Assembly: GCF_003001675.1 (NCBI RefSeq)
Contig: NZ_PVYW01000006.1
Coordinates: 248,001 to 312,000, forward strand
Source: Cohnella sp. SGD-V74
GTDB taxonomy: Bacteria > Bacillota > Bacilli > Paenibacillales > Paenibacillaceae
Length of the DNA stretch: 64,000 nucleotides
Reading direction: 5' to 3'
The notes below the pieces were generated by a model. It saw only the letters and a list, made by a program, of their open reading frames with translations, was not told the origin of the DNA and did not search any database. The position numbers and the translations under genes are program-made. Numbering within the stretch: position 1 is the first letter of the stretch; the number at the start of each line of letters is the position of its first letter. Below are positions 930 to 24,982 of this stretch, piece by piece.

Positions 930-1643
930 ATGAACCTGACGGATTGGAAGCAGCGCCCGGAAATCTCCCGGCGCATCGTCGCTTTCGGTTCAAGCAATAC
1001 AGCTCTGACCGCGGACAACGAAGGACGGCTCGGCTGGGCGGAATGGCTGCACGTTCAGGCGCGCGAACATATCGGAAGCCACGTCTCCGTCATCAACCAA
1101 GGCGTCGGAGGAGAGACGACCGAGCATTTGCTGGACCGGATCGGACGCGACGTCGAGCCTTTGTCTCCTTCGCTGGTCATCGTGACGATCGGCGGCAACG
1201 ATATGATTACGGAGATGCCGCTTCCCCGGTACAAGTCGAATCTGCGGCAAATTTGCGAGCTTGTCCGTTCCTTCGGCGCCGAACCTCTCCTGCAGACGTA
1301 CTACTGCCCGGTATACGAAGACAGCGGCATCCCCGGTTTCCGGCCGCGATTCGAAGCCGCCATGGATGCCGTCCGGCAAACGGCCGATGAGCTAGGAACC
1401 GCTCTCGTCGATCAATACTCGCATTTCGAGCCGTTCTATCGGGCCGACCCGTCCGATTACCGCAAGCTGATGAGGGATTGGCTTCATCTGAACGCCTGCG
1501 GCAATCTGGCCATGGCGCGATACTTGCTGAGCCGCCTGGGTCTGCCGCTCGCGAATGCGCCGCAGAGCCTGGAACCGGAAGCAAGCCTCCTTCTCCGGCG
1601 ATTGGAAACCTCCCCGGAAAGCGGGTCGTTCTCGAACGGATAG
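930..1643 (+). CDS. SGNH/GDSL-family hydrolase
   Basis: This 237-residue cytosolic protein has the SGNH hydrolase blocks. Block I reads VAFGSSNTA near residue 17, where the usual GDS is GSS. Block II is GVGGETT, block III is TIGGNDM (G-x-N-D), and block V is DWLHLNACG (D-x-x-H). The catalytic triad would be the block I Ser with Asp and His of block V. Such enzymes hydrolyse ester bonds, often deacetylating sugars or lipids. The ATG at 930 is preferred because GAAAGG sits nine bases upstream; the in-frame ATG at 921 abuts that site and an earlier ATG at 873 has none. A good terminator follows at 1660. Confidence 0.85.
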   Translation: MNLTDWKQRPEISRRIVAFGSSNTALTADNEGRLGWAEWLHVQAREHIGSHVSVINQGVGGETTEHLLDRIGRDVEPLSPSLVIVTIGGNDMITEMPLPRYKSNLRQICELVRSFGAEPLLQTYYCPVYEDSGIPGFRPRFEAAMDAVRQTADELGTALVDQYSHFEPFYRADPSDYRKLMRDWLHLNACGNLAMARYLLSRLGLPLANAPQSLEPEASLLLRRLETSPESGSFSNG

Positions 1644-1659
1644 ACGAGATTAAAATAGC

Positions 1660-1702
1660 AACGGCGGTGCAGGGATCGCTTCCCGGCATCGCCGTTTTTT
1701 TT
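1660..1702 (+). terminator. Rho-independent terminator after the SGNH hydrolase gene
   Basis: The 11-bp arm AACGGCGGTGC pairs with GCATCGCCGTT (one G-U) around a short loop and runs into eight T residues. Confidence 0.85.
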
Positions 1703-1843
1703 AATGGAGTTAATCAAGTCCCAGCTTCTCGCGCCGTTTATTCGCAATGCGCAAAGCGCAATCTTGCACTTTGAGAATTTTTGCTCTTTGGGCAAGTTTA
1801 TGCTAATGTAGAATTCGACCTGACTTACGAGGGGAGCAAGAGC

Positions 1844-2464
1844 ATGAACAAACAAGGCTTGCGCGAATTCAAAAAAGAAGCGACCGCCCATGCGTTGGCC
1901 GAGGCGGCGTTCCAGCTTACGCTGGAGCGAGGCATCGACGGCTTCGTCGTCGACGATGTCGTTCAGACCGCCGGGTATTCCCGGAGAACGTTCGCCAACT
2001 ACTACTCCTGCAAGGAAGAAGCGGTTGCCATGTCCGCCGTGCCTTATCACGGAACCGAGGAATTTATCGACCTGGTCCACCGGCTGCCCGAAAACACTTC
2101 GCCGCTTGAATTGGTGCACCATCTGACCAAGATGCAGCTTGCCGGGGACGTCATTCATAAAATGCGCCGGCTGGTGGAGCTGTCCAAAAAGCACCCCACC
2201 CTCGAGCCCTATACACTAAGCGTCATTTACGGACTGCAGACGAAAGCCCAGAACCTGTTGGACGATTTGTTCCGCGAGCAATACGCGACAGGATTCATTC
2301 ATTTCCTCGTCGGAGCGGCTTACGCGGCCATTCACCCTCTGCTCGACGGGAGCGCCCATGTACGGCTGCCGGGTCAGCCCGTAGACGAGATGCCGGATGC
2401 GATCTCTTTCGACGAGTACATCGACACGGCGTTCGGCTATTTGCGCAACGGATTTCAGATTTAG
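1844..2464 (+). CDS. TetR/AcrR family transcriptional regulator
   Basis: This 206-residue protein has an N-terminal TetR helix-turn-helix: ALAEAAFQLTLERGIDGFVVDDVVQTAGYSRRTFANYY at about residues 17-54 shows the F-x-x-Y ending of the recognition helix. The C-terminal part is a helical ligand-binding domain of unknown specificity. The ATG at 1844 is chosen because GAGGGGAGC sits seven bases upstream; an earlier in-frame ATG at 1781 lacks a site. The MMPL exporter starts 25 bases after the stop, so this is most likely its local repressor, released by the exported compound or a membrane signal (inference). Confidence 0.88.
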   Translation: MNKQGLREFKKEATAHALAEAAFQLTLERGIDGFVVDDVVQTAGYSRRTFANYYSCKEEAVAMSAVPYHGTEEFIDLVHRLPENTSPLELVHHLTKMQLAGDVIHKMRRLVELSKKHPTLEPYTLSVIYGLQTKAQNLLDDLFREQYATGFIHFLVGAAYAAIHPLLDGSAHVRLPGQPVDEMPDAISFDEYIDTAFGYLRNGFQI

Positions 2465-2489
2465 ACCATAAAAGGAGAGAATCAACTGC

Positions 2490-4844
2490 ATGTCCAAGTT
2501 ACTGTACAGAATCGGAAAAACGGCGTATGACAAGCCGTGGGGCTTCATCGTCGGCTGGATTCTTATTCTCGGCGTCGCTGTCGCGCTGCTCGGAGTCAAC
2601 GGAATTCACGTCAGCTCCGAGATGAAGCTGGAAGGCACGGAGTCGCAGAAGCTGCTCGATAAGTTGGAAAAGGAATTGCCGCAAGCTTCCGGCGGGCAGG
2701 CGAGCGTCGTGTTCAAAGCCCCCGAAGGCGAACGGCTCGACGCCCCGGATCATCTGGCCGCAATCCTCGAGGCGGTGAACCGGGTCTACGGCCTGGACCA
2801 AGTCATCAACCCGGCCGAGCTGTTAGCCGCAGCCGCCGGCGAAGCTTCCTCGGCGGATTCGTCCCTGGCGGATGCCGCTCTGCAGACGTCCGGCGAGAGT
2901 CAGGCCGCGCCTGCCGAGCTTCCGCCTTACGGTCCGCTTATCGTGGACGGAATGCCGATGCCCGGGATATTGATTTCTTCCGACGGCAGCGTCGTCCTGT
3001 TCCAGTTTCAATTCACCGTGCAGCACTCCTCGCTTCCGAACGAAGTAAAGGACGCTATCATCGAGGCCGTCAAGAACGCGGAAAGCGGCACCGGCATTCG
3101 AGCCTGGCCGAGCGACACACTTGAGCCGTTCGAAGTTCCGGTCGGACCTCAGGAAGTCGTTGGCTTGGCCATCGCCGCGATCGTGCTTGTTGTAACCCTT
3201 GGTTCCGTCGTTGCGGCCGGTTTGCCGCTCGTTATCGCCCTGTTCGGCGTCGGGATCGGCGTCGGCGGCGCATTCGCCGTCTCCAAGTTCGTCGCGATGA
3301 CCTCCGTCACCCCGGTCCTGGCTCTGATGATCGGACTGGCCGTCGGCATCGATTACGCGCTCTTCATCGTCAATCGCCAGCGCCGGCTTATTCTCGATCA
3401 GGGACTGACCGCGCGCGAAGCCGCGAGCAGAGCCGTAGGCACAGCGGGAAGCGCGGTGTTCTTCGCCGGGTTGACCGTCATCATCGCCCTGTGCGGCCTT
3501 CTCGTGATCGGCATTTCCTTCCTGAGCATGATGGCTCTCGTCGCTTCGGTTACCGTGTTCCTTAACGTGCTGATCGCCCTTACCCTGCTTCCGGCCATGC
3601 TCGGACTGCTGGGCGAGCGCATCTGCTCTCCCAAGGCGCGCGAGAAGAGCCGGTCCAAAGGCGCGGACAGCCAGCACGGCTTCGCCGACAAATGGGTACG
3701 GGGAGTCATCAAGTTCCGCTGGCCCGTTATCGTGGGGATTATCGTCATTCTGGGCGCGGCCGCGCTTCCGGCTGCCAAGATGGAGCTGGGCATTCCTTCC
3801 GGAGGCTCCGCGAATCTGGACACGTCCATCCGGCAAAGCTACGATGCGGTGTCGGAAGCTTTCGGAGAAGGCTTCAACGGTCCTCTGCTCATCGTCGCCG
3901 AGCCAAGCGATCCCTCCGGAGCGATTACACAGCAAGCGATGTACGGTCTCTTGCAGGATCTTCAAGCCGTCGAGGGAGTTTCCGTCGTCAATCCTCTGGG
4001 CATCAATGAAACCGGGGACATGGCCATCCTGAGCATCATTCCGACGACCGGGCCGACGGACGAAGCGACGCGCAAGCTGGTCGAAGATTTAAGGTCCTCC
4101 GATTCCGCGATTGCGCAAAAGCATCAAGTATCCGTCGGAGTTACCGGCTTCACCGCCGTCAATATCGACATGTCCGCCAAGCTGGCCGAAGTGTTCCCGG
4201 TTTATATCGGAATCATTGTCCTTCTTTCGCTGATCATTCTGCTCCTGGTGTTCCGTTCGATTCTCGTTCCGATCAAAGCGACCGTAGGCTTCCTCCTCAG
4301 CGTGCTTGCCACGTTCGGGCTGACCACGGCCGTCTTCCAATGGGGATGGTTAAAAGATCTGTTCGGATTCGATACCGGCGGACCGCTGCTCAGCTTTATC
4401 CCGATCGTCGCGACGGGAATTCTGTACGGCCTCGCGATGGACTATCAGGTATTCCTCGTTTCCTCCATGAGGGAATCTTACGTCCACGGCGATCGGGGCA
4501 ATCAGAGCGTCGTTCACGGGTACGGTCTGGCCAGTCGCGTCGTTGTAGCCGCAGCGGTCATCATGGTTTCCGTATTCGCCGGATTTATTTTCACGCACGA
4601 TATTATGATCAAGCAAATCGGTTTCGCGCTGGCGATCGGCATTCTGATCGATGCGTTCGTCGTCCGCATGATGCTCGTCCCGGCCGTCATGGCCCTGTTC
4701 GGCGACAAAGCCTGGTGGCTGCCGAAATGGCTTGACCGTCTGCTGCCGAACCTTGACGTCGAAGGAGACAAGCTGATCGCCGAGCTCCATGCCGCAAACG
4801 CGAATGGCGCCGTCTCTGCACCGAACGCGTCTCGGGCACACTAA
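2490..4844 (+). CDS. MMPL/RND-type membrane exporter (YdfJ-like)
   Basis: This 784-residue protein has the MMPL architecture. One N-terminal membrane segment (about 16-40) is followed by an extracytoplasmic domain and a six-helix bundle with the GLAVGIDYALFIVNR motif (about 285-299). A second segment (about 410-430), a second extracytoplasmic domain and a second bundle containing GLAMDYQVFLVS follow. The Asp of each D-Y-x-[LV]-F motif is the family's proton-relay residue. MMPL proteins export lipids, siderophores or drugs using the proton gradient. The start has AAAGGAG 12 bases upstream. It is co-directional with and 25 bases from the TetR gene, consistent with an inducible efflux operon. 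The substrate is unknown. Confidence 0.88.
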   Translation: MSKLLYRIGKTAYDKPWGFIVGWILILGVAVALLGVNGIHVSSEMKLEGTESQKLLDKLEKELPQASGGQASVVFKAPEGERLDAPDHLAAILEAVNRVYGLDQVINPAELLAAAAGEASSADSSLADAALQTSGESQAAPAELPPYGPLIVDGMPMPGILISSDGSVVLFQFQFTVQHSSLPNEVKDAIIEAVKNAESGTGIRAWPSDTLEPFEVPVGPQEVVGLAIAAIVLVVTLGSVVAAGLPLVIALFGVGIGVGGAFAVSKFVAMTSVTPVLALMIGLAVGIDYALFIVNRQRRLILDQGLTAREAASRAVGTAGSAVFFAGLTVIIALCGLLVIGISFLSMMALVASVTVFLNVLIALTLLPAMLGLLGERICSPKAREKSRSKGADSQHGFADKWVRGVIKFRWPVIVGIIVILGAAALPAAKMELGIPSGGSANLDTSIRQSYDAVSEAFGEGFNGPLLIVAEPSDPSGAITQQAMYGLLQDLQAVEGVSVVNPLGINETGDMAILSIIPTTGPTDEATRKLVEDLRSSDSAIAQKHQVSVGVTGFTAVNIDMSAKLAEVFPVYIGIIVLLSLIILLLVFRSILVPIKATVGFLLSVLATFGLTTAVFQWGWLKDLFGFDTGGPLLSFIPIVATGILYGLAMDYQVFLVSSMRESYVHGDRGNQSVVHGYGLASRVVVAAAVIMVSVFAGFIFTHDIMIKQIGFALAIGILIDAFVVRMMLVPAVMALFGDKAWWLPKWLDRLLPNLDVEGDKLIAELHAANANGAVSAPNASRAH

Positions 4845-4865
4845 ACCTCATCCCTGCATGACAAA

Positions 4866-4989
4866 AAACGGGGCTGTCCCAAATGAAGTCAGAGCAACAA
4901 TTGGTATTATCGATAAATAAGAACGGGGTATGTATCTCCCTATTCTGTCTCGATAATACTTGTTGCCTGACTCTGGGACAGCTCCGTTT
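4866..4989. repeat. About 124-bp long inverted-repeat element (MITE-like hairpin)
   Basis: The outer arms AAACGGGGCTGTCCCA and TGGGACAGCTCCGTTT pair with one G-U. Inside, GTCAG..GCAACAA..GTATTATCGA on the left matches TCGATAATAC..TTGTTGC..CTGAC on the right, and a weaker inner pairing closes the hairpin. It fills the gap between two convergent genes, so it may end transcription from both sides. The size and shape also fit a miniature inverted-repeat element. Confidence 0.75.
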
Positions 4990-5002
4990 ATTTGAATCGT
5001 TT

Positions 5003-6148
5003 TCACAGCTTCAGCACCTTATCGATCGGAAAGGAAAGCCCTCCCCAAGCCTTCGCTTGCGTCCAAGCCGCTTCGCCTTGCCAGAACGGATCGTTCTCCG
5101 GGAGGCCGAGCGGAAGAAACACCGCCGCGCACAAATACAGGCTTCCGGTAGAAATGTAAGGCTCGCCCACGCCCGGCTGATGTCCGCAAAATCCGATCGT
5201 CAGCCAGCCGTCCGCGTCAAACGTATTCGGCGCCTCGATCGTGCGGCGAATGACCGCCGTCAGCGCGCTGCGTACCTGGGCAGGCTCGACAGACGCTTCC
5301 AGCCGGTGCTGAAGCGCCATCTGCGACAGGTGCTGGAACGCTCCGAAACGATACGCCAGCGAACGGCCCAGCGGCGGGAACGTCCCGTCCGGCGCGATGA
5401 ACCGCTCCAGCTGCGTCGCGTAACGGGAAGCACGCGACAGCGCCCGTTCCCGGATCTCGCTCCATTCCGAATCGAGAGAATGCACGACATCCAAAATATC
5501 GACGAGCATCGGCTGAATGACGAAGCTGTTATAGTAGTCGGCATGATAATCGGGGCCGTCTCCGTAAATTCCGTCGCCCTTGTACCAGTTCTCGTGCTCG
5601 CGGATCGCGTAGTCGACGCGCATCGGGTCCCAGTCCTCGCCAGCACGATACAGAACCGTCTCGATCAGCGCCGAGAACAGCAGCCAGTTGCTGTATACCG
5701 GCTTGCGCGTTCGCGTCGCCTTCAAGGCGGCGATCACGTTCGCTTTGACTTGATCGCCCAGCTTGTCCCACAGCTCCGTCGGAGCCCTTAGAATCGCATG
5801 CGCGAGGAAGGCCGTGTCCACGATCGGCTGGCCTCCATATGTAAAATTCATATAATCCGGCGAATCCGGATCGGTGCCGGCATCGATCGCCGCGCGCGCC
5901 AGCTCCGCGTAAGCTCTGCGCTGCCGCCCTTCCTCCCCTTCGTCGCTTCCCGACTCCAGCCAGGGCGCCAAGCCGCACAGCAACCTTCCAAGCGCCTCCA
6001 AATGCGTAAACTTCTCTCTTTCCACGCCGCTCGTTTCAACCGGCATTTTCAGCTTAAGCTCGCGTCTTGCAAGGTGATTCAGCACGGGATCCGCGATGCG
6101 TCTCAACGTCTCGATCCAGTAAGCTCGATCCAGTTGTCCGGAATTCAT
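5003..6148 (-). CDS. DUF2264 domain-containing protein
   Basis: This 381-residue protein is recognisable as DUF2264 from its opening RAYWIETLRRIADPVLNHLA, the segment MPVETSGVEREKFTHLEALGRLLCGLAPWLE and the aromatic stretch GDGIYGDGPDYHADYYNSFVI. No signal peptide is present. Family members look like helical toroid-type glycan-active proteins and occur in polysaccharide-use loci, but I know of no settled reaction. The ATG at 6148 is chosen because GGGGGAAGG lies just upstream; an in-frame GTG at 6175 has none. It follows the sugar-uptake operon on the same strand with a 242-bp gap, so it may have its own promoter. An inverted repeat lies 73-104 bp upstream. Confidence 0.82.
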   Translation of the reverse strand: MNSGQLDRAYWIETLRRIADPVLNHLARRELKLKMPVETSGVEREKFTHLEALGRLLCGLAPWLESGSDEGEEGRQRRAYAELARAAIDAGTDPDSPDYMNFTYGGQPIVDTAFLAHAILRAPTELWDKLGDQVKANVIAALKATRTRKPVYSNWLLFSALIETVLYRAGEDWDPMRVDYAIREHENWYKGDGIYGDGPDYHADYYNSFVIQPMLVDILDVVHSLDSEWSEIRERALSRASRYATQLERFIAPDGTFPPLGRSLAYRFGAFQHLSQMALQHRLEASVEPAQVRSALTAVIRRTIEAPNTFDADGWLTIGFCGHQPGVGEPYISTGSLYLCAAVFLPLGLPENDPFWQGEAAWTQAKAWGGLSFPIDKVLKL

Positions 6149-18201: not shown

Positions 18202-18750
18202 TTAAAACCTCACCTGCGGATTGATTTTCTCCGCCTCGCCGATTTGGAAGAAGGGCTGCTCACTGAAGCCGAACAGACTCGCGATGAGATTGGACGGAAA
18301 CACCGCGATCGCCGTATTGAAAGCTTCCACTGTGTCGTTGTAGAACTGTCTCGCATAGCGGATTTTATCCTCAATCTCGGCAAGCTGCTGCTTGAGGTAG
18401 AGGAAATTCTCGCTCGCTTTCAAGTCCGGATAGCTTTCCGCCACGACCATCAGCCTGCTGAGCAACAACGACATCTCGCTGCTGGCTTCCGCTTTCTCGT
18501 TCACCGAACCCGCCGACGCGTACCTCGTTCTCAACTCGGTCATTTGACTGAGCGTTTCTCTCTCGTGCGCCGAATATCCCGATACGGTCTCGACCAAATT
18601 GGGAATCAGATCGAACCGATTTTTCAACACCACGTCCACCTGCGACCAATTGTTCCGCACCCGATTCCGGAGTATGATAAACCGGTTATACGTAATGACG
18701 ATCCATAGAAGCACGATTGCGCCGACCGCAAGCCAAATGTAAAGTTCCAC
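18202..18750 (-). CDS. LemA family protein
   Basis: This 182-residue protein starts with one membrane segment (about 4-24). The LemA domain follows: YNRFIILRNRVRNNWSQVDVVLKNRFDLIPNLVETVSGYSAHERETL. Next come a long helical hairpin and the NDTVEAFNTAIAVFPSNLIASLFGF signature. LemA proteins are membrane-anchored helical proteins of uncertain function, often paired with TPM or DUF2207 proteins. That pairing holds here, since the DUF2207 gene ends 39 bases upstream on the same strand, so the two are probably co-transcribed. Confidence 0.93.
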   Translation of the reverse strand: MELYIWLAVGAIVLLWIVITYNRFIILRNRVRNNWSQVDVVLKNRFDLIPNLVETVSGYSAHERETLSQMTELRTRYASAGSVNEKAEASSEMSLLLSRLMVVAESYPDLKASENFLYLKQQLAEIEDKIRYARQFYNDTVEAFNTAIAVFPSNLIASLFGFSEQPFFQIGEAEKINPQVRF

Positions 18751-18789: not shown

Positions 18790-20625
18790 TCAGAACGCTC
18801 CGCGGCCGCCTCCCCCGCCACCGCCGCCACCGCCTCCGGAGAAAAATCCGCCGTCGGAGGAATCGCTCGACGAGTTCGCTGTTTTCGCGGCAGCGGATAC
18901 CGCCTGATCGAACGAATGGGTCCAATCGGCATAATAGTAGCCGGTTCCGATCCCCATAATCCCTTGGTCGCTCACTTCTTCAGGAATGTTCACGCGGGTG
19001 ATCGCGATCATCCTTTTCGCTTCTCCGAGCGAGATCGCATAGACGAAATAATGCTCCCACAGGTGAACGGCCATCGGCTCCCGTGACGCAATCCGGCTGT
19101 AGTCGCGCAGGAAACGCTTGAACGCCTTCCACTTCGCGAATTCGGTCTGGCCCATTTGCGAACGCCGTCGTTTCGGAGGCATGAAGAAGCACAACGGAAT
19201 GGCGCAGAACATCAACCATTTCCAATCCTCGGGCGCCAGAAATAAAAATCCGAAAAATTGCAGCAAGGCGACACCAAGTATAGATCTGCGCACACCCGGA
19301 CGGCGAGTTTCGATATATGGATCTGCGGCTTTTGCCACCGCTCCCTTCCACTCGGTCCATTGCTTGACAAAGGCGGCGGCATCCTCCTTCTCCTCGGCTT
19401 GTTCGCGAATATCTGACAGCCACACTTTTCCGCTGCGTCCAATTTTTCGAAAGAACCATCTGATCAACAGATTCTCGTGAGGACTCAGTTTGCTCGCGTA
19501 CACGCCAAGGCGAAACAGGTAATCCGGCTTTTTCCGACGAAACCGGAAGACACTCCGACTTCCCTCATCCGGCTCGACGGCTTGCATGGACACACACCGC
19601 TTTCTGACCAGATCCATCAACGTGGCGATGAGATCCCTGGAAGCCACACGGTAGTTCATCAAGTAACTCACGACGGCAGGCGTTACGTCGCCGGGAAGCT
19701 CGCGATAGTATTTGCCCTTCCAGTCCGGCTTGTACTTTGCAGCGTATTTGCGATATACGAGAGTACCGCCGACCAGATTCGCGATCAGCAGGACAAGAGC
19801 GCCGTAGAGACTGGGATCGCTGTACGGATTGATCTCATCCTCGTACCGATCGGCGTGGGGATCGGCCCATCTGCGTTCCTCTTCCAGAATCCGTTCCAGC
19901 ATCGCTTCCGGACTCACCTTCGCGCTGCCGGGAACGTAGGAGACCGGGAACAGCACCCTCACTTCCAGCATCTCTCCGGACGGCAGCGGGCTCATCTCAA
20001 AACGGACAACGCCCCGGTCTTCGATGTCCAAGGTTCCGCTTGCCGGTCCGTGACCGAACGCCTGAACCCGCTCCCGCTCGGCGCCTTCCGGCAGTTCGAC
20101 ACGGATGCGAACCTTCCCCAGATCGCTGGGGTTCGTCTCGTCGAAAAACTTCCAGTAGAGCTCGGAAGTGTCCGCATAGACCTGCACGACGTTCTTGACG
20201 GTATAGGTATAGCGGAACACTTTCGTTTCATTCTCGGATTTTGCGTAAACCTTATAATTGAGCTTTTCTCCATCGGCCGTCTGTTCGAATTCAAGCGGGA
20301 TGCTCTGCTGCCCGGCCTCCTCGAAAGCCTGAAAACCTTCAATCCCGTCGGAACCGGAAGAATTAAGATCCACCAGAACACCGTTAAAAGCACCGTTAAA
20401 ATGGTAGGTATCCAGTTCTGTCACCTGCATGTTGCCGTCGCGATCGATGCTGGCGTGAATCTCGACCTCGCTGATTTCGAACGAACGATCCTCTGCGCGT
20501 GCCGGTTGGGCAAGCAGGGGCAAGAGGAGTGAATAGAAAAGGCCGGCGACGACTATGGCCACTGCGATGATGCGCTTCTGGCCGCCTGTGGCGGCTTTGA
20601 ACGTAGCCCGGATTGCTGCTCCCAC
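18790..20625 (-). CDS. DUF2207 domain-containing membrane protein
   Basis: This 611-residue protein has a signal peptide ending near ARA-ED (about 45) and an N-terminal extracellular beta domain typical of DUF2207 (EISEVEIHASIDRDGNMQVTELDTYHF). A membrane segment lies near 275-295, a cytoplasmic region follows, and two further segments lie near 450-490. A glycine-rich tail with eleven consecutive Gly ends in RGAF, as in many family members. The protein sits with LemA and may form a membrane complex with it; no reaction is known. GTG is the start, with GAGGAGG six bases upstream. Confidence 0.87.
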   Translation of the reverse strand: MGAAIRATFKAATGGQKRIIAVAIVVAGLFYSLLLPLLAQPARAEDRSFEISEVEIHASIDRDGNMQVTELDTYHFNGAFNGVLVDLNSSGSDGIEGFQAFEEAGQQSIPLEFEQTADGEKLNYKVYAKSENETKVFRYTYTVKNVVQVYADTSELYWKFFDETNPSDLGKVRIRVELPEGAERERVQAFGHGPASGTLDIEDRGVVRFEMSPLPSGEMLEVRVLFPVSYVPGSAKVSPEAMLERILEEERRWADPHADRYEDEINPYSDPSLYGALVLLIANLVGGTLVYRKYAAKYKPDWKGKYYRELPGDVTPAVVSYLMNYRVASRDLIATLMDLVRKRCVSMQAVEPDEGSRSVFRFRRKKPDYLFRLGVYASKLSPHENLLIRWFFRKIGRSGKVWLSDIREQAEEKEDAAAFVKQWTEWKGAVAKAADPYIETRRPGVRRSILGVALLQFFGFLFLAPEDWKWLMFCAIPLCFFMPPKRRRSQMGQTEFAKWKAFKRFLRDYSRIASREPMAVHLWEHYFVYAISLGEAKRMIAITRVNIPEEVSDQGIMGIGTGYYYADWTHSFDQAVSAAAKTANSSSDSSDGGFFSGGGGGGGGGGGRGAF

Positions 20626-20683
20626 TGCCTGCCTCCTCTAACGTTTCGCTGTCGCTATCATAGTAGAAAAGGAGGACAAAGTC

Positions 20684-20701
20684 ATCAAACTTTCGTTTGA
20701 T
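20684..20701. promoter_or_regulatory. Perfect palindrome upstream of the DUF2207 gene
   Basis: ATCAAAC and GTTTGAT flank TTTC, a perfect 7-bp inverted repeat 59-76 bases before the start codon. It may be an operator for the DUF2207-lemA unit or a weak hairpin. Confidence 0.35.
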
Positions 20702-20762
20702 TTTGTCGAATTATGTATGAAAAAGGAGACGGCGGCCGCCTTTCGCTCGTATTCGCCGAGGA

Positions 20763-23700
20763 TTACGGACCTGCGAGGTTTAAGTCCCGCGCTTTGGCGA
20801 TCGCCTGGCCGCGTCTCTTGACGCCAAGCTTTCCGTACAAGTGATGCGTGTGGGTTTTGACGGTCGCCTCGGTAATGGCCAGCAAAGCCGCGATCTCCTT
20901 GTTCGAATACCCGGCCGCGATCGCCCGCAGCACTTCGGTCTCCCGATCCGACAGCGGCGGCTCCGGTGCTCCGGTCGTTCCGGGGTTCCCGGCGTTACGC
21001 GCCACGGCGTCCTTCTCGACCGACCAGACTCCCCAGATCGCCTCCGAAGGCTCCTCGAACAAGGTCAGATAGGCGAAGTTCTTGACCAGCGCTTCGATGT
21101 CAGCTGCGGTTTTGTCGGTGAAGACCTCGGCGATCCGCGTGTTCTCCAAGTACATGACGGCGGGAGAAGGCATTCTCGGCAAGCCGATCGGCAAGCAAAT
21201 AATCGACTTTGCCCGGCCTGCCGCAATGTGGGGGTCCGCTGCGAATTCGCTCTCTTCCGCATCCTCCAGCACTACAGGGGGCTTCTTTCCGACAGCCGCC
21301 CTCAGCACTCCCTGAGCCAGCCCCGCTCCCTCCCGTTCTCGGGCGCCGTAATAGGCAAGAGGCCGAGGCTCCATTCCATCCGCAGCGGCTACGATCATGC
21401 CGCGATCCGCGCCGGCTTTGCGACAGGCAACGGCGAGAAGCTCCTCGGGTCGCATGACCTTGAACGCCGCGGGAGGCTCGAATGGGCGATGCCCAGATTC
21501 CGCTTGGCCGTCCGGTCTCCTCCTCGGATGCCGGGGCTCCTCCGCAGCGCTCCCTGCCCGGAGCGAGGGAAGCGAGCGAATCGACGCCTCCACGTCGGGA
21601 TGCTCCCGCTCCAGGCGATTCCGCTTGGCCGCATAGCCATAGGCGGAATAAGCGGACATCGCTTCCAGCAAAGCGATTAACGAGCCGGCCGTCATGCCTT
21701 TCTCGCGATAATACAGCGCCATCTTCTCCATACACAGCGGTCGAAAAACGCTTGGAAATTCGTGCTTCGCGCAGGCTGCCGCCCGTTCGTACGCCTGGAG
21801 GGCATCGCGGTTGTGCCGGTTAACTCTCGCCCATTCGGCCCGAATCAACCAATAAGCGGAGCTGTCCCGGCCGAACGGGCCTTGCCAAGCTTCCATCTTC
21901 TTGATTCTCCGACGGATCGCTCCGGCCCATGCCCGACGCTGCGCCGCCGTACCTTCCGCGAACAGGGCCGCTTGAGCCAGCGTCTCGAACAGAAGCACCC
22001 TGCGATTGCGAACCCAGTCGATCTTCAGCTCCATGCTCTTCGCCTGTTCGGCAAAGAGCAGCGTCTCCGGGTAGCGCCCGTGCAAATAAGCTTGTTCGGC
22101 GCGCAAGATGAAGTCGTAATTGTCCGGCTGCTCCCCTTCCGCCTCCGGATTGTCGGGGCGAGTGTAGAACTCCCAAGCTCCGTCCTCCTCGCAAGAACGG
22201 AGATATCTCTTCACGAGGCGAATCATGCGCATCGATGTCGCATCCAGCAGAGGCCCCGCCTCCTGTTCCAAATACCCGACCGTCTCCTCCAACTGCCTGG
22301 CCGTTCCCCAAGCGGAGATCAAGCTCGTAATTGCGGTGAGATTAAAAAAGGTCACCTGATGCTGCTCCTTGGTCTGGCGCAGCACCCGCTCCATCATGGA
22401 AGCCGTCTCCTCCGGGCGCTCGAGCTGCTCGATCATGCCCTTCATAAATAACAGCCGGGGCTGTTGGGTTGGGTGAACCCGCAGACCGCTGCTCCACACC
22501 GTGCGCAGATGCTTGGGCCAGAGACGGTATATGCCGGGAAGTCCGCGCTGCAGCAGAAACTCGAAGCAATCCAGGACGTTCAGAAAATAATCGTTGCGCC
22601 CTTTCGTCAGCCCATGCCGGACGAAGCGGGAGAAGACATAGAGCAATAGCGCCGGATCGGCAACGCTCAGCGGATAGATCAGGCCCAACAGAATTTTGCC
22701 TTGCGCGACATATTCGAAATTCTCATTTTCCGGGATCTGATCGTCGCGCGAATCGATGCCGCGCGCCGCCAGCGTCGCCCGCACCGCTTCGGCCAACGCT
22801 TTCAGCGGCGACACGCGCTCGGGAAGGAGCCAGCCGAAAGCCGCCATCGTTTCACGGCTGAGCCGAAGCGCGATCTCCGGTTCGTTCACGGCAAACAGAT
22901 CCTGCTGACAGAGGCAGGCGTTCAGCCGATCTTCGATCGACAGCTTGCCGGCATGCTTGCGAATCCAGACGAACCCTTCGGCCGCCCGCTCCGTCGCCCC
23001 TCTGTAGTGCAGCAAGTTGTAGAGCCGGTACCCGATCCTGCAAGCGAGTTCGTCCGGCTCCTCCCCTTCCTGCCGAGCAAGCCCGAGCGCTTGCTCGAAA
23101 TCTTCCGTCGCCTGAGTCAGGTTTCCCTTCTCCATGGCCAGCATGCCGGCCGCGTAATTGCGCTCCGCCAATGCCCGGCGACGATCCGCCGACAATCGAT
23201 CCGCTCCCAGATTCAGATGCCGTCGCGCCGTTTCGCGAGCCTCTTCCCCCTCAAGCCGGTCATAGGCATCCCCGACCCGGCAGTGCCGGACGCTTCGCTC
23301 TTCCTCCGGAATCCTCTGATACAGCTTGGACTGAACATAGGCGGACAGGAACAAATACCCGTCTCCGCTCCCCTCCTCCAAGCTGACGATTCCCGATTCC
23401 TGGGCTTTATCCATCCACGTTCGCAGCTCTTCCTCATCGCGGTCCAGCAGTTCGTTCAGCACACACCTCGAAAAACGAGGCCCGATCAACGCCGCAGCAG
23501 TCAGCATCTCGACCCGTTCGCCCGGCAGCCGTTCGAGCAGATCGTCCATCGACTGCATATACCCTTCGGAGACTGGCGCTTCGGCGATCAGTTCCTCCGT
23601 CCACTCCCAGCGATGGCGTTCGAAATGATAGGACAAGCTGCCTTCGGCATGCCATCTCTCCAGATGCGTCTCTATTTCCCGCGGAACGCCTCCGCTCCAC

Positions 23701-24863
23701 TGCTGCAAAGCTCCCGCCAGCACCCGCACGCGAGGCGATCGCTCGTGAAGCGCGCCGGACAGCCACTCCAACACATGCTCATAATCGAGAGGCTTCAAGG
23801 GAAGAGCGGCTGCCGGTACTGTCGCAGAGCCAGCAGCCTCGTATCCGATATTGCCGCCGACCTCGCCGTCGGAGCGGAGAAGCGCCAGCAGTCCTCCGTT
23901 CTCCATTCGTCCCAGCCAGCCGTATGCCTCGCCGATGACGGACGGGGCCGCTTGTTCCACATCGTCGACGATCAAGACGCGTATCTGCTGCGACTCAGCC
24001 TCCGTAGCGGATGTTCGCATGATCGGTTCGTCCTGAAGGCACAGGCACAGCCCCTGCCGCAGCCATTGCTCCTCTGCTTGCTCCAGCAATCCTCTCCGTT
24101 CACCCGTATCCAGAGCGGACACCAGAGCGGCCAAATGTCCTTCTCGCAGCAGTTGCCGCTTCCATTCCCTCATCAATCGGCTTTTGCCTATCCCGCAAGC
24201 GCCCGTTACCGCGACCACTTGCGGCTCCTTACGGGCCGCCAGGAAAAGCCGGTTCAATTCAGCCAGCTCCTCTTGTCTGCCCAGGACGCGCTTCGGCCCG
24301 GCCAGCCGGCTCCGCCCGTCAAACTTAAACAGCTCATCCTCGGAGAGCCCCGGCTTCTCCCGGCACTGCCGGAGATCCATCAGCATGCCGTACGCCGTCT
24401 GGTAACGGGCCTTAGGCGATTTCTCCAGCGCTCTCTCCACAATCCGGCAGATCGGCCCCGCCGCTTCGAGGAGAGCCGGCGGGAAGGGGCGCGGCGGATG
24501 GATCAGATGCGCTTCCTCCCAGGTCTGATCTTCCTCCGGCTCGACCGGCAGTCGTCCGGTCAGCATCTCGTACAGCATCGCTCCGAATGCGTACAGATCG
24601 CTGCGCTCGTCCGGTCGTCGGCCCAGGCCAAGCTGCTCCGGAGCCCCGTAGGCCGGATTCCCCGCAGCGGAAGGCGCCCACTCCACCACGGAATCAGGCT
24701 GTACGGAGAAGTCGGCCAGCTGCAAATCGGCGATCATCCCGTTCCGAACGTGCGCATCGTGAATAATCTCCGCCATCCGGATGCCCAGCTTCAGAAACAA
24801 ATCTATGGGAAGTGCACTGTCCCGCAACAAGCTTGATATCGATCTTGAGGTGATTATGGACAT
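20763..24863 (-). CDS. Giant LuxR-type regulator: kinase-like, AAA-type ATPase, helical repeats, GAF, HTH
   Basis: This 1366-residue protein has five parts. Residues 1-170 resemble only the C-lobe of a Ser/Thr protein kinase: ADF at 50-52, APE at 74-76 and SDLYAFGAMLYEMLTGRLP at 88-106. The glycine loop, the ATP-binding Lys and a normal HRD are absent (AHVRNG instead), so it is probably a pseudokinase. Residues about 190-450 are a STAND/AAA-type ATPase with Walker A GACGIGKS (221-228) and Walker B VLIVDD (about 305). About 550-1090 is helical and TPR-like. About 1130-1270 looks like a GAF domain. Residues 1304-1366 are a LuxR helix-turn-helix (SDRETEVLRAIAAGYSNKEIA). GGGGA lies nine bases before the ATG. 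The signal and targets are unknown. Confidence 0.85.
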   Translation of the reverse strand: MSIITSRSISSLLRDSALPIDLFLKLGIRMAEIIHDAHVRNGMIADLQLADFSVQPDSVVEWAPSAAGNPAYGAPEQLGLGRRPDERSDLYAFGAMLYEMLTGRLPVEPEEDQTWEEAHLIHPPRPFPPALLEAAGPICRIVERALEKSPKARYQTAYGMLMDLRQCREKPGLSEDELFKFDGRSRLAGPKRVLGRQEELAELNRLFLAARKEPQVVAVTGACGIGKSRLMREWKRQLLREGHLAALVSALDTGERRGLLEQAEEQWLRQGLCLCLQDEPIMRTSATEAESQQIRVLIVDDVEQAAPSVIGEAYGWLGRMENGGLLALLRSDGEVGGNIGYEAAGSATVPAAALPLKPLDYEHVLEWLSGALHERSPRVRVLAGALQQWSGGVPREIETHLERWHAEGSLSYHFERHRWEWTEELIAEAPVSEGYMQSMDDLLERLPGERVEMLTAAALIGPRFSRCVLNELLDRDEEELRTWMDKAQESGIVSLEEGSGDGYLFLSAYVQSKLYQRIPEEERSVRHCRVGDAYDRLEGEEARETARRHLNLGADRLSADRRRALAERNYAAGMLAMEKGNLTQATEDFEQALGLARQEGEEPDELACRIGYRLYNLLHYRGATERAAEGFVWIRKHAGKLSIEDRLNACLCQQDLFAVNEPEIALRLSRETMAAFGWLLPERVSPLKALAEAVRATLAARGIDSRDDQIPENENFEYVAQGKILLGLIYPLSVADPALLLYVFSRFVRHGLTKGRNDYFLNVLDCFEFLLQRGLPGIYRLWPKHLRTVWSSGLRVHPTQQPRLLFMKGMIEQLERPEETASMMERVLRQTKEQHQVTFFNLTAITSLISAWGTARQLEETVGYLEQEAGPLLDATSMRMIRLVKRYLRSCEEDGAWEFYTRPDNPEAEGEQPDNYDFILRAEQAYLHGRYPETLLFAEQAKSMELKIDWVRNRRVLLFETLAQAALFAEGTAAQRRAWAGAIRRRIKKMEAWQGPFGRDSSAYWLIRAEWARVNRHNRDALQAYERAAACAKHEFPSVFRPLCMEKMALYYREKGMTAGSLIALLEAMSAYSAYGYAAKRNRLEREHPDVEASIRSLPSLRAGSAAEEPRHPRRRPDGQAESGHRPFEPPAAFKVMRPEELLAVACRKAGADRGMIVAAADGMEPRPLAYYGAREREGAGLAQGVLRAAVGKKPPVVLEDAEESEFAADPHIAAGRAKSIICLPIGLPRMPSPAVMYLENTRIAEVFTDKTAADIEALVKNFAYLTLFEEPSEAIWGVWSVEKDAVARNAGNPGTTGAPEPPLSDRETEVLRAIAAGYSNKEIAALLAITEATVKTHTHHLYGKLGVKRRGQAIAKARDLNLAGP

Positions 24864-24958: not shown

Positions 24959-24982
24959 GAGGCAACCCCGCAGGGCTGCCTC
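24959..24982 (-). terminator. Terminator after the sulfur operon
   Basis: GAGGCA with TGCCTC and an inner CCC/GGG pairing form a stem, followed on the minus strand by a T-rich run (CATTTCTTT). Confidence 0.6.

Follow-up and report, generated by a model that had tools for sequence, protein, structure and literature searches.

A STAND-LuxR regulator of Cohnella sp. SGD-V74 with a lone kinase C-lobe and a candidate operator before a DUF2207-LemA operon

Here we describe a regulator gene in a 64,000-nucleotide stretch of the Cohnella sp. SGD-V74 genome (contig NZ_PVYW01000006.1, positions 248,001 to 312,000; hereafter the window, whose numbering we use). From its first residue to its last, the encoded protein joins the C-terminal lobe (C-lobe) of a kinase, a STAND-type ATPase, a TPR-like solenoid, a GAF domain and a LuxR/NarL-type helix-turn-helix (HTH), and a palindrome lies between its gene and the next. 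Judging from sequence, we read the protein as a dedicated local one-component activator of the adjacent DUF2207-LemA operon, with a probability of about 0.6. The initial annotation of this DNA had proposed that pseudokinase-like, STAND-type ATPase and DNA-binding domains meet in one protein; that combination stands, and its DNA-binding end has gained a candidate operator and target. The elements concerned are as follows.

20763-24863, reverse strand: regulator gene, 1366 amino acids, ATG start (open reading frame and Pfam)
20684-20701, no strand: candidate operator ATCAAACTTTCGTTTGAT, an 18-bp perfect palindrome with a single exact occurrence in the genome
20657-20662, reverse strand: -10-like hexamer TATGAT, whose start is 30 nt from the centre of the operator
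18790-20625, reverse strand: presumed target, the first gene beyond the operator, encoding a DUF2207 protein whose start resembles a signal peptide
18202-18750, reverse strand: gene for a LemA family protein, second in the operon presumed to be the target
24959-24982, reverse strand: 10-pair terminator-like hairpin in the gap that separates the regulator from the upstream oxidoreductase gene
20727-20741, reverse strand: weak terminator-like hairpin of 6 pairs, 3' of the regulator

The palindrome sits in the 137-bp gap (20626-20762) that separates the regulator from the DUF2207 gene. By a matrix built without this site it scores 18.2, the next-best place in the window scoring 11.4, and its score is reached by 0.025% of random 137-bp DNA. 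The 8.24-Mb genome holds one exact match, two places with two mismatches and five with three, while the reversed control pattern has two matches; within the window the palindrome is the sole match with up to three mismatches (0.05 expected).

Similar sites recur just downstream in many members of the regulator's clade. In five relatives (L057-L060 and L075), the gap between the regulator and an S-layer gene contains a terminator-like repeat followed by a conserved inverted repeat. The core ACTTT[AC]GT (ACTTTMGT), counted on either strand, is present in the 400 bp downstream of 18 of the 37 loci of the clade and upstream of 1 of 37, whereas downstream of other groups of the family it is found in 0/11, 1/16, 0/5 and 1/5; its background near loci of the clade is 0.057 per kb. 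Scored by leave-one-out matrix, 24 of 42 clade loci (five having been added from a wider search of the class) reach 8 or more downstream, compared with 0/11, 0/16, 0/5 and 1/5 in the other groups, where 1, 1, 0 and 0 loci do so upstream; a score of 8 is reached by about 9% of random 330-bp DNA under a closely similar matrix.

The sites also keep a near-constant distance to a putative promoter element. The best -10-like hexamer, taken as the best one 26 to 43 nt from the palindrome centre, starts 30 or 31 nt from it in 31 of 33 sites (21 with the exact core and 12 from matrix matches, with L170, L200 and L216 under 8); identical copies in related loci (L057/L058, L172/L178 and L081/L221) mean that these counts are not independent events. 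Because the hexamer begins at this distance, the site centre would fall at about -42. Counted from the inside out, arm positions are complementary in 29, 23, 21, 22, 12, 20, 19 and 16 of 29 sites. Further, the class of operator arm tends to track the recognition helix among 31 sites, kinship being ignored: CTAAC-like arms go mostly with TEGTVKxY, CAAC or CAAAC with TEATVKxH, and TACTAC-like arms with [AV]ETTVKTH, the fit being inexact at L054, L075, L080, L169, L215 and L216.

A palindrome lying over the -35 region might also obstruct RNA polymerase, so that the regulator would repress the downstream operon. We consider repression unlikely, given that a centre at about -42 and the near-constant spacing to the -10-like hexamer fit a LuxR-type activator, for which the classical lux box position is the basis of comparison. 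It is very unlikely, in our estimate, that the palindrome is a terminator, an mRNA hairpin or a chance occurrence unrelated to the regulator. Its place in the gap 3' of the regulator would suit such an origin, 18 of the 42 clade loci fall under the matrix threshold downstream, and DUF2207 genes elsewhere can have comparable sequences: of eight other DUF2207 promoters (one in the same genome, seven elsewhere), seven score at most 4.3, and that of G032 scores 14.7 without the core, while G008 has CAAACTATCGTTTG, a palindrome resembling that of the regulator, about 0.2 kb upstream of its DUF2207 gene (L254, ~2806-2823), beside which a family search found no member of the regulator's family. Set against this, separate terminator-like hairpins precede the palindrome in the regulator's locus and in relatives (the stretch has 12 such hairpins, with 10.5 expected from shuffles), no T-run follows it, the distance to the hexamer is near-fixed, arms tend to differ with the HTH, and random DNA so rarely reaches its score.

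What lies downstream in relatives points to the cell envelope. An open reading frame with a signal-peptide-like start, judged by eye, follows in 24 of 36 rows, four rows having no open reading frame by the filter used. Within 1 kb, an S-layer-homology frame was found by profile in 13 of 35 distinct family loci, from a survey of 37 rows (two duplicates included) that spans all family types and some short flanks; a hand-written pattern had missed known positives. Each of three genomes holds at least 150 S-layer repeat matches. DUF2207 and LemA are, we assume, likewise envelope-type families.

We next turn to the protein's start, where the following features were placed.

24324-24863, reverse strand: kinase-like domain consisting of the C-lobe only, residues 1-180 (Pfam, alignment and predicted structure)
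24636-24644, reverse strand: APE motif, residues 74-76 (alignment)
24582-24602, reverse strand: SDLYAFG, residues 88-94, the helix-F Asp motif (alignment)

Alignment and Pfam both agree with the initial annotation, which had noted a kinase-like start that keeps APE and SDLYAFG and is without the N-terminal lobe (N-lobe), the ATP-binding Lys or a normal HRD. Residues 43-117 match positions 138-209 of the 263 in PF00069 with 29.0 bits, under the cut-off of 31.7, and a six-frame scan of the same genome gave a kinase match of 32.1 bits, just above it. Aligned with a full kinase of its own genome (L001), the protein begins near the inter-lobe hinge; the N-lobe of Hanks-type kinases and its VAxK lysine are absent. 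MIADLQLAD stands in place of HRDxxxxN, with the first Asp present and His, Arg and Asn missing, and the activation loop from DFG to APE, DFG included, is gone too, a loss that had escaped the initial annotation; the HRD...N and DFG of an active Hanks-type Ser/Thr kinase are thus both lacking. Because N-lobe and activation loop are lost, the protein should not be able to phosphorylate.

The C-lobe itself appears complete, its APE and helix-F Asp being accompanied by a matching predicted model. Structure prediction of this part, proposed earlier as a check, returned a compact C-lobe: in an AlphaFold run with 17 related sequences, the mean predicted local distance difference test score (pLDDT) is 82-97 across ten-residue blocks of residues 11-180, and predicted residues 5-183 superpose on PknA (6b2q_C) with Z 23.3 and a root-mean-square deviation (rmsd) of 2.1 over 169 aligned residues. 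The kinase part is, by prediction, a folded half-kinase.

No hidden N-lobe precedes it. The frame is intact over its full length, an in-frame TAA stands three codons 5' of the ATG, and the upstream gene ends at a stop 132 bp away; given this stop and the nearby gene, there is no room for the missing lobe. A mis-start or frameshift is ruled out by the in-frame TAA together with an N-lobe search of the gene's surroundings. That search found no convincing N-lobe beside 56 C-lobe-only or kinase-free genes, with upstream DNA short at some loci (183 bp at L061, for example), whereas controls were detected. The best matches of the N-lobe query at N-lobe-less loci have E 0.001 (L061) and weaker; those of L061, L172, L058 and L181 cover the hinge and helix-D end, which is retained anyway, and the others have E 0.1 to 0.9. 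Around the orthologues of the upstream oxidoreductase in G008, G020 and G027, the stretches fetched contain no relative of the regulator, DUF2207 or LemA, and synteny therefore gives no argument.

We then surveyed the family for the N-lobe in 74 rows gathered by similarity to the regulator and to C-lobe-only LuxR members. Among 63 rows with LuxR output, 51 (the regulator included) are C-lobe-only, a figure biased towards that state by the way the set was gathered; an N-lobe is present in 5, the kinase part is absent from another 5, and 2 (L053 and L054) were unscored. All 11 rows with histidine-kinase or GGDEF output, types read by eye from the C-termini, carry the N-lobe and its lysine. The C-lobe-only LuxR rows divide into 40 of the regulator's type and 11 that keep HxD and mostly DxG. 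Of the 39 others of the regulator's type, 38 keep the APE Glu, 37 the helix-F Asp and 7 the HRD Asp; the DFG Asp column is gapped in 35, and the lysine column holds an aligned residue in 2. In several C-lobe-only rows (L064, L158, L168 and L180, for example) the C-lobe is preceded by an N-terminal extension, and neither these extensions nor the lysine-column residues read as an N-lobe. A wider search of the class added LuxR relatives without an N-lobe in other families (L216, L218) and with one (L217, L219 and L220, the start of L219 being the same as that of L087); 15 further rows whose C-termini are not LuxR-like (L225-L239) have it. With the regulator alone as search input, no named relatives were found.

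On a quick tree, at least four changes between N-lobe and no N-lobe are needed. The regulator's clade (37 rows) and the HxD-keeping clade (11 rows) each bear a star on it, and the latter is sister to a group made of N-lobe-bearing L083 and three kinase-free rows; the tree has no bootstrap and long branches (the regulator, L194, L183, L186 and L200), and gain and loss are indistinguishable on it. A second C-lobe-only paralogue of the same genome, L023 (positions 1761-6164 of L023, forward strand; contig C6, about 37 kb from the regulator), keeps HLD and DSG. Upstream regions of its HxD-keeping clade, with L083 added, contain CTCCATACC in 7 of 12 loci and AGGTATGGA in 6 of 12, perhaps a different operator, which in some loci would face divergent S-layer genes.

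Selection on the C-lobe was estimated as the ratio of nonsynonymous to synonymous substitution rates (dN/dS) in 13 close pairs of relatives, some members being common to several pairs and the regulator in none. From APE to helix I, dN/dS is 0.00-0.16 in 12 pairs and 0.40 in one, which involves L185 (G222), whose C-lobe start fails to align and looks disturbed. The part from hinge to APE is looser, at 0.06-0.34, and the ATPase gives 0.10-0.31. By these sequence comparisons, purifying selection acts on the C-lobe of relatives, and most strongly on its structural half. Since C-lobe-only rows are common, dN/dS is low and the predicted C-lobe is compact, we have before us a conserved half-kinase and not one damaged gene; tree distribution and dN/dS rule out a single damaged gene as the general explanation. 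The initial annotation had held that homologues commonly bearing a full N-lobe would make this protein only a truncated or mis-started one. Relatives with an N-lobe do exist, in the LuxR minority and in every histidine-kinase and GGDEF row; the conclusion that the protein is only truncated does not, in its simple form, agree with the prevalence of the C-lobe-only state in LuxR rows and with purifying selection in relatives.

The remaining domains were located as follows.

24180-24203, reverse strand: Walker A GACGIGKS, residues 221-228
23961-23978, reverse strand: Walker B-like VLIVDD, residues 296-301
21636-22715, reverse strand: TPR-like helical solenoid part, residues 717-1076 (predicted structure and fold comparison)
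21048-21467, reverse strand: GAF domain, residues 1133-1272 (5hl6: Z 12.9, rmsd 3.3, 130 aligned)
20772-20969, reverse strand: LuxR/NarL-type HTH, residues 1299-1364 (ChrA 4yn8: Z 12.6, rmsd 1.0, 66 aligned, 50% identity)

Pfam, motifs, predicted structure and fold comparison all bear out the earlier description of a Walker A/B ATPase, a helical middle, a GAF domain and a LuxR HTH, in a fold comparison to which the kinase C-lobe and helical repeats contribute most rows, the ATPase and TPR parts being less well tested. AAA_16 is found at residues 192-262 (34 bits, cut-off 32.6), which with Walker A and B identifies a STAND ATPase; the first Foldseek matches of this part are the STAND protein 6mfv and Apaf-1 (E 2e-8 to 4e-8), although superposition on them is poor overall, with a template modelling score of about 0.2 and rmsd above 20. 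A TPR unit scores 17.7 bits, under its cut-off of 25.7. GerE at residues 1303-1357 reaches 62.6 bits (cut-off 23.5), as expected of a LuxR/NarL HTH, whereas the full-length MalT model scores 51.4 bits against a cut-off of 537, from the HTH alone, and the protein is therefore no MalT equivalog.

Several observations weigh against the activator reading. The core of the regulator's palindrome is oriented opposite to the sites of its relatives. Matrix scores of 8 or more occur upstream in 4 of the 42 clade loci, and of the 18 loci below this threshold downstream, five hold the core but had their near-identical siblings left out of training, L084 has its site upstream and the rest are without explanation. 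The DUF2207-LemA target differs from the S-layer-type neighbours of the relatives, and no S-layer frame was found in the window. The regulator is the longest branch of the tree (1.65), its best identity is 31-33%, and no close orthologue was found in 36 other genomes of the genus, with up to 16 candidates scored in each. Finally, its ATPase is without about 90 residues that relatives have between Walker A and B, and residues 245-292 are predicted with low confidence; given these last two points, the protein may be decaying.

If it were, the kinase part would be a dead leftover of a truncated copy on its way out, as the long branch, the ATPase deletion and the missing orthologue would suggest. 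Five relatives have dropped the kinase part altogether, and L211 (G005, ~1202-5552), by identity the relative nearest to the regulator, is split over three frames by pseudogene formation or sequencing errors. We judge such decay improbable, in that the intact frame retains Walker A and GerE and has a perfect palindrome alongside, the 51 C-lobe-only rows are spread over two or more starred clades and closely related pairs show purifying selection, and the C-lobe of the regulator itself is predicted to be compact.

The activator reading implies the following route. The C-lobe would persist as a folded module, used for docking or regulation, in front of the STAND ATPase. A ligand or partner binding to the C-lobe, the TPR solenoid or the GAF domain may switch the ATPase, and this switch may bring two HTHs together, both steps by analogy with the STAND/MalT class. 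The HTH dimer would then bind the palindrome at about -42 before DUF2207-LemA and activate this operon as its main target. The same arrangement faces secreted or S-layer-type proteins in many relatives, and for this reason the overall function of the system is probably to adjust the cell surface.

There is, a little short of an even chance, a different role for the half-kinase: it may serve as an intramolecular lid or dimer wedge for the ATPase and bind no ligand of its own, with the TPR solenoid or the GAF domain as sensor. Its DNA-binding half is the same as in the activator reading. The motif PEQTGR..R..D.RSD.Y after APE recurs, by eye, in members with LuxR, histidine-kinase and GGDEF output, and its recurrence across output types suggests a contact site inside the protein. 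The TPR part, moreover, re-aligns best to the Rap receptor 8rsv_B (Z 20.5, rmsd 4.9, 333 aligned, 7% identity), followed by a second Rap (Z 18.5), subunits of APC/C (17.7, the best unrelated repeat protein) and NprR (16.5). Against a sensing solenoid, the top rows of Foldseek itself are IFT-A, Tom70 and RhlR, Rap is not among the 50 matches listed, and a repeat fold shows no ligand. The Rap/NprR-like re-alignment is a lead for a peptide ligand, a likeness of predicted fold only.

Each domain, and the general plan of kinase, AAA, GAF and output, is already known. The closest proteins are those that run from kinase through AAA_16, helical part and GAF to histidine kinase or GGDEF, such as the 1725-residue L024 (positions 2937-8114 of L024, reverse strand; contig C2 of the same genome), a histidine-kinase type whose N-lobe is present and whose catalytic loop is degraded. 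Their middle is homologous, the order is the same up to the output and PEQTGR...RSDxY is common to both; they have an N-lobe with lysine and another output, whereas the regulator has the C-lobe only and a DNA-binding output, and so neither the full kinase nor the histidine kinase of that class. NCBI presumably names L024-type proteins 'trifunctional' kinases. A 231-codon frame with a LuxR HTH match (L019) stands directly upstream of L024, and a lanthionine synthetase (DUF4135, LanC-like) lies beside a diverged family member elsewhere (L069, 1909-5250, forward strand).

MalT/LAL-type STAND regulators share the STAND ATPase, the TPR-like solenoid and the C-terminal LuxR HTH; they are not known to have a kinase-like start or a GAF domain, and the regulator has both. 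Pseudokinases are, to our knowledge, normally described as two-lobed. In plants, ZED1 with ZAR1 is a pseudokinase feeding a STAND-type ATPase and would work like the regulator, yet the two are separate proteins with an immunity output and are not known to bind DNA. The fungal hybrid histidine kinases CHK1, Mak2 and Mak3 follow the regulator's order of Ser/Thr kinase-like domain, AAA_16 and GAF (PMC9069115) and differ in an output of histidine kinase plus receiver; the likeness is one of domain order as described. The annotated kinase domain of Candida albicans CHK1 is given there as 435-636 only, about 200 residues, and the kinase domains of the fungal members may be reduced too. EssB, a bacterial pseudokinase whose kinase fold is without catalytic residues and has been proposed to be a protein-interaction module (PMC3694306), keeps both lobes, unlike the regulator. 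We found no paper on a C-lobe-only kinase domain fused to STAND-LuxR, or on a linked operator, in a search outside the subscription literature, which is weak evidence of absence.

Taken together, loss of the N-lobe near the lobe boundary seems to have happened more than once, with the C-lobe remaining under selection. More tentatively, and with more doubt than assent, half-kinases may be a recurrent, independently evolved regulatory domain, present on STAND-LuxR proteins of Paenibacillaceae and at least two other families of the class. Each such protein would be devoted to switching a single neighbouring envelope gene, by way of an operator in coevolution with its recognition helix. What a lone kinase C-lobe is good for becomes directly testable here, and the unit of regulator, operator and target is a small test system for bacterial pseudokinase-to-STAND signalling. 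For the organisms themselves, such regulators probably add a level of control over S-layer and envelope proteins, in a group whose genomes hold very many S-layer repeats.

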